Source of the DNA: Spirochaetota bacterium
GTDB taxonomy: Bacteria; Spirochaetota; JAHITG01; JAFGFC01
Assembly (NCBI GenBank): GCA_016931325.1
Contig: JAFGFC010000117.1
Location: forward strand, 1-35,775
DNA: 35,775 nt
Reading direction: 5' to 3'
Shown here: positions 6,883-35,491 of the stretch, piece by piece
Layout of the letters: each line of letters opens with the position of its first letter
How positions within the stretch are numbered: position 1 is the stretch's first letter
The notes under the pieces: model-generated
Seen by the model: the letters and a program-made list of their open reading frames with translations, nothing else
Database searches by the model: none
What the model was told of the DNA's origin: nothing
Position numbers and translations under genes: made by a program

Positions 6883-6921
6883 TTTTAACGGAGGCATGTC
6901 TCTGACATGCCTCCGTTAAAA
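6883..6921. repeat. Perfect 18-bp inverted repeat (hairpin)
   Basis: TTTTAACGGAGGCATGTC-TCT-GACATGCCTCCGTTAAAA. Confidence 0.95.
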
Positions 6922-7529: not shown

Positions 7530-7546
7530 CACATCACCTCCCTTCA

Positions 7547-7572
7547 TTAGCCAAGCCTTCAGGCTTGGCTAA
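7547..7572. repeat. Perfect 12-bp palindrome, REP-like
   Basis: TTAGCCAAGCCT-TC-AGGCTTGGCTAA; related to 12462-12487. Confidence 0.93.
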
Positions 7573-7581
7573 TTGGAATTT

Positions 7582-30987: not shown

Positions 30988-32043
30988 ATGCACAAGATTT
31001 CAAGTGAGAAATTTCACAAAGTACTGGAACAGATCATAAAGGATAATGAGACTTACGGTGCTGTAAAGAAAAGAGATGAATATATCTATGACAGGCTGGA
31101 GACATTGTCTGATCTTGAAATAGAGAATTATGTTCCCACGGTCCTGCCACCCAAAAAATATTTTTATCCCCAGGAAGAAGACCTGGTACAGATAGATTAT
31201 AAAACAAAAAAGGCCAACAGGGTCATCTTTAAAAAAGAGATTGTCCTTCTGGGTGTTCGTCCCTGTGATATCAATGCGATCAGTCTTTTTGACCGGATCA
31301 TGTCTGACGGGAATCCTGACCCGAATTATCTGGAACGAAGAAAGCATATTACGGTGATCGGTTTTGACTGTGTCAAATCCTGCTGGGAGCATGCTCTATG
31401 CGAAGCGGTGGGTACGATCAACGTGAAAGAAGGATATGACCTGTTTTTCAGCGAATATAAAAAAGAATATGTTATTAAAACAGGATCAAAAAAAGGCGAA
31501 GAACTATTTGACCGGTATATAAAAAACAGTCACAAATTATCTGAAAAAGAAAGAGATGACTATCATCATGAAAGGGCAGAGAGGATCAAGAAATTCAATC
31601 ATAAGGTAAAATATCTTTTTCAGGATGTCTCCAGTATCTTTGAAAAGCATTATGATGATCCTTACTGGAAGGAGATAGGAAAAATCTGCCTGATGTGCGG
31701 GAGTTGTGTTATGGTCTGTCCTACATGCTACTGTTTTACCATGGATGAGGAAGTGGACCTTAAATTACAGACCGTTACCAGAAAACGGAAATGGGATGGT
31801 TGTATGTTAAGGGATTTTGCCATGGTGGCCGGCAACCATAATTTCAGACCCACTGCCGAAATGAGATTAAAGCACCGGTGGAACAGAAAATTCAATTACC
31901 TTTTGAAAAAATATCATATGTCCAATTGTGTGGGATGCGGAAGATGCGGTTTTGCCTGTCTGGTCAAGATCAACCCCATTGATATTTTGAATACGATCAT
32001 GGGTAACTACTATTCTGGAGTGAAACATGAGTCAGAAAAATGA
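30988..32043 (+). CDS. Sulfhydrogenase/hydrogenase beta subunit (4Fe-4S dicluster, group 3b type)
   Basis: LLGVRPCDINAISLFDRIM, CLMCGSCVMVCPTCYCF, CVGCGRCGFACLVKINPIDIL; first gene of a hydrogenase operon. Confidence 0.93.
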   Translation: MHKISSEKFHKVLEQIIKDNETYGAVKKRDEYIYDRLETLSDLEIENYVPTVLPPKKYFYPQEEDLVQIDYKTKKANRVIFKKEIVLLGVRPCDINAISLFDRIMSDGNPDPNYLERRKHITVIGFDCVKSCWEHALCEAVGTINVKEGYDLFFSEYKKEYVIKTGSKKGEELFDRYIKNSHKLSEKERDDYHHERAERIKKFNHKVKYLFQDVSSIFEKHYDDPYWKEIGKICLMCGSCVMVCPTCYCFTMDEEVDLKLQTVTRKRKWDGCMLRDFAMVAGNHNFRPTAEMRLKHRWNRKFNYLLKKYHMSNCVGCGRCGFACLVKINPIDILNTIMGNYYSGVKHESEK

Positions 32044-32863
32044 TAAAGATCTCTATGTCCCTGAGAGAGCCAGGATCGTTGAAACAAAAGAAATGACAGA
32101 TCTTGAAAAATATTTCAGGATCAAACTTTTGGACAGAGAGGCCCTCGGACACGCTCCCGGTCAATTCGTTATGGTGACCGTATACGGCGTGGGCGAAGTG
32201 CCCATTTCGGTATCCTCGCCGCCTAATGGAAGATCAGGCGAATTTGAGCTGGTTGTGAGGAAAGCCGGCAATGTGACACAGGCGCTGCATAACCTTGGAA
32301 CAGAGAGCCTGGTGGGTATCCGCGGGCCTTTTGGGACAAACTTTACTTCTAAAGGGTTTGAACGAAAGGACATCCTGTTCATAGCCGGCGGCATCGGTCT
32401 TGTTCCGCTTCGGTCATTTATCAAACAGGTCGTTAATGAGAACAAAAAGTATAGGAAGATAACCATTCTTTATGGCGCCAAATCTCCTGATGAACTGTTG
32501 TTCAAAGAAGAAATGGACCAGTGGGGGAAGAAAGAGAATGTTGAGGTGAAGATAACGGTCGACAAAGGTGATCCATCCTGGAAAGGGAACGTCGGTGTTA
32601 TCACGACCCTTATTCCGCCTCTTGAGATTGATATACAGAATACACTGGTGGCTGTGGTCGGCCCCCCGGTTATGTATAAATTCGTCATTCTGTCCCTGGC
32701 TTCTAAAAAGGTGGCCAATAAAAATATCTATCTTTCTCTGGAGCGAAGGATGAAATGCGGTGTGGGCAAATGCGGGAATTGTCAGATCCAGGGTTCCTAT
32801 GCCTGCCAGGACGGTCCTGTCTATTGTTTTGCCGATATTGAACATCTGAAGGAGGCGCTCTAA
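32027..32863 (+). CDS. Sulfhydrogenase gamma subunit (FAD/NAD(P)-binding, 2Fe-2S)
   Basis: GHAPGQFVMVTVYGVGEVPISVSSPP, FIAGGIGLVPLRSFI, CGVGKCGNCQI...YACQDGPVYC. Confidence 0.94.
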   Translation: MSQKNDKDLYVPERARIVETKEMTDLEKYFRIKLLDREALGHAPGQFVMVTVYGVGEVPISVSSPPNGRSGEFELVVRKAGNVTQALHNLGTESLVGIRGPFGTNFTSKGFERKDILFIAGGIGLVPLRSFIKQVVNENKKYRKITILYGAKSPDELLFKEEMDQWGKKENVEVKITVDKGDPSWKGNVGVITTLIPPLEIDIQNTLVAVVGPPVMYKFVILSLASKKVANKNIYLSLERRMKCGVGKCGNCQIQGSYACQDGPVYCFADIEHLKEAL

Positions 32864-33615
32864 TGAAGCCGAAAGTAGCGTTTTTTGATTTTGCTTCCTG
32901 TGAGGGATGCCAGCTGGCTGTGCTGGACCTGGAAGAAGAACTGCTGGATCTGGTCAATATTGTTGAGATCGTCAACTTTCGTGAGGCGATATCCGAAAAA
33001 GGCGAAGATTATGAGATCGCTTTTATTGAGGGAAGCATTTCCAGCGAACACCAGATAGAAAGGATAAAAAAGATCAGAAAGCAGGCCAAGCTGCTGATAA
33101 CGATCGGGGCCTGCGCCTGTACCGGTAACATGCAGTATCTATCCAATTTTTTTGATTTTGAAGAAGTGAAAGAATATGTCTACGGGGACAAGGCAAAATA
33201 TTTTGATCCTGTCCAGTCAAAACCCATTGACCAGATCGTGAATGTTGATTTCCAGATCCCCGGATGTCCCATAGATAAATATGAATTCTTAAAGGTGGTC
33301 AAACAGGTGATCGCCGGGGGCCTTCCCCGGATCCCCAATTATCCGGTTTGCAGTGAATGCAAAATGCAGGGTAATGAATGCCTTTTGAAAAAAGGAATCC
33401 TCTGTCTGGGGCCTGTCACCAGGGCCGGGTGCGGGGCCATATGCTGTAAGAATTTCAAGTATTGTTTCGGATGCAGGGGATTGGCTCCGGAATTCAATAT
33501 AGAGTCTTTCAAGGACGTGTTGAGAAGTATTGGCTATAAAGAGAAGGGTATAATGGCGCAATTCAAGATCGTTAACGGCAAAGATATTCAACTACTACAG
33601 AGCGGAGGAAAGTAA
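32863..33615 (+). CDS. NiFe hydrogenase small (delta) subunit
   Basis: CEGCQL, GACACTGN, GCPIDKYEFL, three-cluster Cys pattern; TAATG overlap with neighbours. Confidence 0.95.
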   Translation: MKPKVAFFDFASCEGCQLAVLDLEEELLDLVNIVEIVNFREAISEKGEDYEIAFIEGSISSEHQIERIKKIRKQAKLLITIGACACTGNMQYLSNFFDFEEVKEYVYGDKAKYFDPVQSKPIDQIVNVDFQIPGCPIDKYEFLKVVKQVIAGGLPRIPNYPVCSECKMQGNECLLKKGILCLGPVTRAGCGAICCKNFKYCFGCRGLAPEFNIESFKDVLRSIGYKEKGIMAQFKIVNGKDIQLLQSGGK

Positions 33616-34922
33616 TGGGAGACAAGAAGATCGATCTGAACATTGCTGTCAAGTATTTAACCCGGGTCGAAGGGCATGGCAATATAAAGATAGATGTGAA
33701 AAGCGGACAGTTAAAAGAATGTAATCTGGAAATCGTCGAAGCTCCCCGTTTCTTTGAATCCTTCCTGAGAGGACGGCATTATACCGAGGCCCCTTTTATC
33801 ACTTCCCGGATATGCGGTATCTGCGGAATAGGTCATACACTGGCTTCCATAAGGGCTGTTGAAGACGCTTTGAATATAAAGATCACAGAACAGACCAGGA
33901 TCCTGAGGCAGGTTTTAAATAACGCCGAACATCTCCAGAGTCACTGTCTTCATATTTATTTTCTGGTGGCTCCTGATCTGTATAAAGCGAGCAATGTTTT
34001 TACCATGGCCGCCAAGAACAAAGAACTGGCCCTTATCGGCCTGCGTTTGAAAAAGCTGGCTAACGATATGGGTGACGTGTTTGGCGGCAGGACCATTCAC
34101 CCCATAACTCCCGTGGTCGGCGGTTTTACCGATGTGCCGACCAGACAGGAATTGAAGGAGATTCTTGAACGTTTAAAGAAAGCCGGGGATGATATACAAA
34201 AGACCGCAGAGATCTTTAAAAAGGAAGTGAAATTTCCGGATTACGAGAGGCACACAGAGTATATCAGTTTAAAGAACAATTTCCGCTATGCCTTTAATGA
34301 GGGAGATATTTACTCTTCGGATACAAAGATGACTTCCTATAAGAATTACCGGGATATGACCAATGAAAACGTTGTTCCTCATTCCACCGCCAAGCATGCC
34401 AGCCATGCCCGGAACTCGTTCATGGTGGGAGCGCTGGCCCGGTTCAACAATAATTATGAGCAACTGGAACCTTCAGCCAAAAAATTGGCAAAGGAACTGG
34501 GCTTACGGGCTGTTTGCCATAGACCTTATATGATTACCGTAGCCCAGCTGGTAGAAGTGGAGCATTGCCGGGCTGAATCCATCAGGATCATTGAAAAGTT
34601 TTTAAAACAGCTCCCGAAATATGAAAAACCTGTCAGCCCGAAACCCAATACTGCAGGTGAAGGAGTCGGCGCTGTTGAAGTGCCACGCGGCATTCTGTAT
34701 CATAATTATCATATTGATAAAGAAGGTATGATCAAAGATGTGAACTGTATCATACCCACGGGACAGAACATGGCCAATATTGAACAGGATATGCGCGAAT
34801 TCCTGCCCGCCATGTTCGGTAAATCCCAGGAAGAAATAACCCTTTTAATGGAGATGCTCGTCCGGGCCTATGATCCCTGTATCTCCTGCTCCGCCCACTT
34901 CCTGGAAGTCGACTTTGTATAA
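33615..34922 (+). CDS. NiFe hydrogenase large (alpha) subunit, group 3b type
   Basis: L1 SRICGICGIGHTLAS and L2 DPCISCSAH followed by a short C-terminal peptide FLEVDFV. Confidence 0.96.
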   Translation: MGDKKIDLNIAVKYLTRVEGHGNIKIDVKSGQLKECNLEIVEAPRFFESFLRGRHYTEAPFITSRICGICGIGHTLASIRAVEDALNIKITEQTRILRQVLNNAEHLQSHCLHIYFLVAPDLYKASNVFTMAAKNKELALIGLRLKKLANDMGDVFGGRTIHPITPVVGGFTDVPTRQELKEILERLKKAGDDIQKTAEIFKKEVKFPDYERHTEYISLKNNFRYAFNEGDIYSSDTKMTSYKNYRDMTNENVVPHSTAKHASHARNSFMVGALARFNNNYEQLEPSAKKLAKELGLRAVCHRPYMITVAQLVEVEHCRAESIRIIEKFLKQLPKYEKPVSPKPNTAGEGVGAVEVPRGILYHNYHIDKEGMIKDVNCIIPTGQNMANIEQDMREFLPAMFGKSQEEITLLMEMLVRAYDPCISCSAHFLEVDFV

Positions 34923-35046
34923 GGGGACGGACTTAACTTATTAACTTTTGAGAGTTATTATTAATAAAGATCCTGTAAATTACTATATTTTTTTAATCAT
35001 TATAATAAATAAACATGTCAAAAGTTAATAAGTTAAGTCCGTCCCC
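34923..35046. mobile_element. 124-bp MITE/REP-like element with perfect 29-bp terminal inverted repeats
   Basis: GGGGACGGACTTAACTTATTAACTTTTGA (34923-34951) and its exact reverse complement (35018-35046); AT-rich core; no ORF of its own. Confidence 0.9.
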
Positions 35047-35491
35047 ATTGATCATCGGCCTTGGGGACGACTACTACGGCGATGATGCCATCGGCCTTGT
35101 GCTGATCCGAAAATTAAAAGAGGACAGGCCTCTGGGCAAAAAGGTCATTTGTCTGGAGATCGGCAAGAAAAGCTTCCAGATCATTGATCATCTCGATGCT
35201 CATCAAAAGATCCTGATCATCGATGCCGTCAGGATGGGGCTGGACCCGGGCGAATTCAGGATCTTTAAATTTTCGGATGTGAAACCAAAGATCGAAAAAG
35301 AGATTCTGTCTTTCCATCAATTCGGACTGGCGGAAAATTTGCTTTTAGCTGATTGGCTGGGAAATGATCTTTCCCGTGTCTTTATCTTCGGGATAGAACC
35401 TGAGAAACTCGAAACAGGGCAGGGGCTTTCCAAAGAAGTAGAAGATAAAATTGATAAATATGTACGGTCCATTATTTCCTGGATCAGGTAA
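35015..35491 (+). CDS. Hydrogenase maturation protease (HycI/HyaD family)
   Basis: LIIGLGDDYYGDDAIGLVLIRKLKE, AVRMGLDPGEFRIF, SFHQFGLAENLLLADWLG; N-terminal MSKVNKLSPSP encoded by an inverted-repeat arm. Confidence 0.92.
   Translation: MSKVNKLSPSPLIIGLGDDYYGDDAIGLVLIRKLKEDRPLGKKVICLEIGKKSFQIIDHLDAHQKILIIDAVRMGLDPGEFRIFKFSDVKPKIEKEILSFHQFGLAENLLLADWLGNDLSRVFIFGIEPEKLETGQGLSKEVEDKIDKYVRSIISWIR

Follow-up and report, generated by a model that had tools for sequence, protein, structure and literature searches.

Towards the right-hand end of the window, i.e., the whole stretch of 35,775 nt that was analysed, an inverted-repeat element lies at the junction between the gene for a NiFe hydrogenase large subunit and that for a maturation protease (Table 1). 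The left arm of the element starts immediately 3' of the TAA stop codon of the large-subunit gene (34920-34922), and its right end is two bases short of a TTG codon at 35048. The arms pair perfectly over 29 bp and are 84% complementary over 44 bp, and a hairpin of this length is far above chance expectation. Thus, coordinates and complementarity agree with a preliminary description of this DNA, which had placed an element of 124 bp, with perfect arms, right behind the large-subunit gene. With its long terminal inverted repeats, its lack of coding capacity and a size within the range of 70-300 bp, the element has the properties of a MITE.

Table 1. Features at and upstream of the junction between the large-subunit and protease genes (window coordinates)
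Feature	Position	Strand	Remarks
Upstream hydrogenase operon genes (Fe-S, FAD/NAD-binding, small-subunit-like)	30988..33615	+	Successive overlaps of 1-17 nt, strong SDs
NiFe hydrogenase large subunit	33615..34922	+	Pfam PF00374; C-terminus DPCISCSAHFLEVDFV intact
Putative ancestral SD, TGGAAG	34903..34908	+	6 nt before TTG 34915; -3.9 kcal/mol
Putative ancestral protease start, TTG	34915..34917	+	Overlaps large-subunit 3' end; now opens only a 9-aa ORF, 34915-34944 (LYKGTDLTY*)
Non-autonomous inverted-repeat element, TIRYT-type MITE, 124 bp	34923..35046	.	Arm pairing; arm recurrence in the genome
Left arm, GGGGACGGACTTAACTTATTAACTTTTGA	34923..34951	+	Perfect 29-bp pairing with right arm
Element core	34952..35017	.	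85% A+T, no coding capacity; unlike the interior of the autonomous element, judged by eye
TATAAT in core	35001..35006	+	Chance P ~0.39; -35 poor
Maturation protease ORF, HycI/HyaD family, from element-supplied ATG	35015..35491	+	Family models span residues 12-157 only
Right arm, perfect complement of left arm	35018..35046	-	Plus-strand reading gives protease codons 2-10 and two bases of codon 11
Alternative start, TTG (residue 12)	35048..35050	+	Two nt beyond the hairpin; no SD

The protease ORF is translated as M-SKVNKLSPSP-LIIGLGDDYYGDD. Its ATG adjoins the right arm, and residues 2-11 of the protein are read from that arm, as had been described. The frame of 158 aa is intact, contains the motifs DDAIG, IIDAV and SFHQFGL, and matches PF01750 (4.9e-23), TIGR00072 (4.2e-32, over the cut-off) and HybD (1cfz; 3.1e-9), with a HycI score of 81.8 bits vs. 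a cut-off of 23. Both the best family models and the solved proteases align to the protein only from residue 11-13 onward, and the arm-encoded SKVNKLSPSP is therefore located outside the family fold. A distant second homologue of the protease (29% identity), in which FFCISN replaces the usual G-x-G-N motif, is encoded elsewhere in the source genome (C5:8509-8886; L034).

Several identities for the hairpin could be discarded. As a T-run is absent on either side, where ATTGATC follows on the plus and TTATACA on the minus strand, it is not an intrinsic terminator. Nor is it a REP or REPIN of the GTAG type, since its ends are GGGGACGG and the GTAG tag is absent. It is not a CGTC REP either: CGTC is found only within the paired stem, and this stem measures 29 bp, whereas CGTC REPs have a stem of 8-9 bp, a loop of 4-5 nt and an unpaired tag. 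Two other strong, perfect intergenic hairpins in the window, at 6883-6921 and 7546-7573, have stems of 18 and 13 bp, respectively, and the second of these (ATTAGCCAAGCCTTCAGGCTTGGCTAAT) resembles the GTAG/TAGCC palindromes of the genome.

A family of inverted repeats and a Y1 transposase element

Pattern searches of the source genome revealed that the complete 124 bp is single-copy, which alone would have counted against the preliminary description. However, the arms recur elsewhere, around a transposase gene as well as in short copies, so that the reading as a relic of a mobile element stands. GGGGACGGACTTAA is found five times in the source genome and in none of the 295 further genomes from the phylum that the search covered. 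Two of the five occurrences bracket a 979-bp element with perfect 28-bp arms (C124:710-1688). This element encodes a REP-associated tyrosine transposase of 306 aa (NCBIfam REP_Tyr_transpos NF047646, 92.3 bits, cut-off 80; Pfam Y1_Tnp, 3e-13), with the HUH motif HFH at residue 60 and Y119 in the sequence YIHQNP (Y-x-H-x-N-P). Thus, a non-coding element in the window shares its ends with an autonomous partner in the same genome, which bears out two earlier proposals, i.e., that the element is non-autonomous and that hairpins of this kind are associated with Y1/REP-type transposases.

When up to three mismatches were allowed in the arms, two more short inverted pairs were found, at C75 (74 bp) and C199 (85 bp), which brings the loci with ACTTAA arms to four. 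The arms in the window differ from those at C124 in 4 of 28 positions, and each of these changes is common to the left and the right arm. Also more generally, changes between copies mostly fall in both arms of one copy, as is expected if arms function as pairs. Convergent pairs of GGGGACGG with exact ends, i.e., short ones plus the C124 element, number ~11 in the genome vs. ~0.1 expected by our own estimate from the octamer frequency, and at least 13 short inverted pairs, some with one end mismatch, are present overall. The additional pairs carry other inner arms, of the TGCGTGACA and TTCT types. The same end form also brackets Y1 genes in relatives; in one from the same order (L104), a Y1 transposase ORF is located between perfect 30-bp arms of the TGC type, GGGGACGGTGCTTGACATTTTGACATTTTT. 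Among the transposase homologues, the element ends were compared for plasmid-borne ones, which end in GGGGACAG or GGGGTCAG.

Judged from these sequences, the element in the window is most likely a mobile-element relic that fits the TIRYT/TIRtron class. Since its core shows no recognisable derivation from the C124 element and the arms of the two differ as described, another transposase, now lost, may have moved it. C120 (L088, ~1180-2830) encodes another REP-type Y1 transposase, distinct from the first (129.7 bits to NF047646), amid GTAG-tagged palindromes such as GTAGCGGAGCCTTAAGGCTCCGCTAC; hence, the genome contains both a GTAG-REP and a TIR-type system. At three further loci (L068, L071 and L072; C85, C164 and C192), short GGGGACGG hairpins lie between A-runs and T-runs and resemble two-way intrinsic terminators.

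All four copies with ACTTAA arms (the window, C124, C75 and C199) are located within 3 nt of a stop codon. Such positions constitute ~0.5% of all positions and 1.7% of the intergenic ones, as computed in the window. Selection against insertions into genes surely contributes to this placement, and a target preference is possible. The C124 element (L006 710) alters the C-terminus of a GGDEF-like gene product, which reads ..IDRRN* when the flanks are joined and ..IDRRRGRT* now, and the C75 copy (L007 2242-2315) provides the G of a TAG stop codon. An ORF of 267 aa that seems to begin within the C104 element was considered as a second case of a start supplied by an element, but was rejected by eye, because a better start, M-K-K-L-L-F, is present just outside that element.

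TIRtrons or TIRYTs are terminal-inverted-repeat-associated tyrosine transposases with dispersed TIR repeats, characterised by the motif GGGGWSAS (Di Nocera et al., 2013; PMC3733652). The system described here resembles them in having a REP-type Y1 HUH transposase inside long inverted repeats with a GGGG motif at their start, and short dispersed repeats in the same genome, which occur as inverted pairs near gene ends. It differs in that the ends are GGGGACGG, which match GGGGWSAS in 7/8 positions with one position off, and in that the copy in the window extends into the coding sequence of a gene and provides the start of that gene. TIRYTs have tentatively been equated with TnpA_REP subclass 2.1, long proteins with C-terminal helix-turn-helix domains (Quentin et al., 2018; PMC6006769). 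The C124 protein, with its Y1 domain at residues 14-123, may resemble this subclass: it has 306 aa and a weak C-terminal match to Bac_DnaA_C (residues 230-286), which is below the Pfam cut-off (20.3 vs. 31.5 bits). REPs and REPINs with a GTAG tag go together with related Y1 transposases, and at C120 the genome has a RAYT of this kind, accompanied by palindromes of its own, but the element in the window has no tag, long arms and a different transposase. Palindromes that are read in frame within genes are known from the Rickettsia RPEs and from intragenic REPs (PMC3733652). The element shares with them that a palindromic repeat is translated within a protein-coding gene, but here the translated part is only one of the arms, which forms the N-terminus and comes with the start codon. 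To our knowledge, RPEs are unrelated in sequence to this element. A literature search for GGGGACGG yielded unrelated papers only.

The probable ancestral start of the protease gene and the proposed insertion of the element

The junction was compared in seven relatives in which the protease gene lies directly downstream of the same type of large-subunit gene (L110 and L113-L118; all from outside the source's own family). In all seven, the protease frame opens within the 3' end of the large-subunit gene, at a distance of 8-14 nt from where its stop codon ends, and an intergenic gap is present in none of them. The closest relative, whose large subunit is 56% identical, has an ATG at -8 after CTGGATG, giving MNNPVLVLGVGN, and the starts of the others are at -11 or -14. 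Several have a TTG at -11 in the same TTTG of conserved F-V codons, and in L021, the TTG at -11 is the sole canonical start upstream of the conserved core. As the upstream genes of the operon also overlap by 1-17 nt, the ancestral protease gene would be expected to have begun within its neighbour as well. When the flanks of the element are joined, they read CTGGAAG, TCGACT, TTG (34915, at -8), TAT AAA TTG ATC ATC, which is open and in frame; a caveat is that joining in frame has a chance of 1/3. The resulting protein begins with M-Y-K-L-I-I-G-L-G-D, with three residues ahead of the one aligned with residue 4 of Escherichia coli HybD.

We consider it likely that a MITE, moved in trans by a TIR-associated Y1 (HUH) transposase, split the 5' end of the protease gene, whose start was then rebuilt by the element. 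The native 5' end had been thought to be replaced by the element, but the joined flanks give an in-frame, overlapping start at TTG 34915 like those of the relatives, and a simple insertion suffices. Most likely, judging from these junctions, the insertion point was a few bases within the 5' end, and the gene was thereby parted from its start codon. The element would have entered the overlap between the two genes directly past the large-subunit stop codon, which in the protease frame is 8 nt past the first base of the native TTG, and would have left the large subunit untouched. A clean insertion with TTG 34915 as the ancestral start would imply TTTGTATAAATTGATC as the element-free junction; since such an allele is not found among the genomes compared, we infer the insertion from the flanks and the relatives. 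The protease would thereby have lost its coupled SD and start; from the old start, translation now ends in the left arm after nine codons. The ORF appears to owe its survival to two circumstances: the right arm has a single frame without stop codons, which coincides with that of the gene, and the arm is by chance adjoined by an ATG. The locus may thus be a clean example of a tiny transposon relic that enters overlapping operon genes, spares the upstream one and gives the downstream one a rebuilt start. The locus also contributes a TIR family with GGGGACGG ends, together with a candidate autonomous element; the element itself is ordinary, and the rebuilding of a gene start is a modest curiosity.

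In a less probable scenario, which nevertheless deserves some weight, the MITE duplicated 1 bp when it inserted between TAA and TTG. The ancestral junction would then be TAATTGATC (TAA-TTG-ATC) and the element-free allele TTTGTATAATTGATC, TTG 35048 would be both the old and the present start, the coding sequence would be unchanged, and the arm would remain untranslated. A terminating ribosome would re-initiate at this TTG, which the folded hairpin sets beside the stop codon. Indeed, an identical base is found on both sides of all four copies with ACTTAA arms (A/A, A/A, T/T and G/G), the TIGR00072 model begins exactly at residue 12, and the TTG is 75% unpaired in the read-through RNA, two nt outside the stem. 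Most of the other GGGGACGG copies, however, have no identical flanking bases. We know of no target duplication in elements of the IS200/IS605 family and of no characterisation of TIRYT insertion. Moreover, the TTG has no SD, and the protein starting there would lack three residues at strand 1 relative to HybD and would also be shorter than the proteins of all relatives, whose starts fall inside the large-subunit gene. On comparative grounds, the overlapping starts of the relatives and the N-terminal length argue against a duplication.

Present-day expression of the protease gene

If the element split the gene as proposed, the protease now most likely begins at ATG 35015, ten element-encoded residues ahead of the conserved fold, or alternatively at TTG 35048. 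We favour the ATG, with some reserve, because it completes the first strand. The claim that it is not preceded by an SD holds: its duplex with the anti-SD has a free energy of +2.3 kcal/mol, and that of TTG 35048 is +0.1, vs. -6.5 to -12.1 for four upstream hydrogenase genes. In the read-through RNA, the hairpin folds at -53 kcal/mol and the ATG region is ~82% paired; the hairpin between the cistrons probably lowers translation of the protease relative to that of the large subunit.

The core contains a TATAAT with a poor -35, 8 nt before the ATG, as had been noted, and the element may carry its own promoter. A leaderless mRNA from or near ATG 35015 would then lack the left arm, and the protease would be expressed apart from the operon. 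The spacing would suit a leaderless start, SDs are missing in leaderless mRNAs too, and the ATG region is open in a transcript that starts in the core (fold of 35007-35110). The suggested internal promoter is nevertheless unlikely, as a TATAAT is expected by chance in a core of 85% A+T (P ~0.39 in a Markov test) and the core of the C75 copy has none. More doubtful still is a domesticated TIR element that sets the dose of the maturation factor, in which a coupled cistron became driven by the element, through core promoter and leaderless ATG or through hairpin-bridged re-initiation, with an N-terminal peptide born from the element. If true, a TIR element would control the dose of a metalloenzyme maturation factor.

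The loss of SD and start could also mean that the insertion silenced the protease gene, which would now be a decaying pseudogene. This is improbable in view of the intact frame with its conserved motifs and the HycI score far over the cut-off. Least credible of all is that the hairpin is a host regulatory structure of the operon (an attenuator, a terminator or a stabiliser of the mRNA) rather than mobile: it is highly stable and located between cistrons, and REP-like elements have been discussed as RNA elements (PMC3733652), but its arms are also found at unrelated loci and on both sides of a transposase gene, no relative (n=7) has an intergenic gap here, and the lack of a T-run excludes an intrinsic terminator.

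Shortly past the element, the native protease sequence GGCCTTGGGGACGAC (~35063-35070), which codes for GLGDD, matches 7/8 of the terminal arm bases and could pair with CCGTCCCC of the right arm (within 35015-35046) in an alternative RNA fold. The resemblance to the arm end is probably a coincidence that results from the GLGDD motif.
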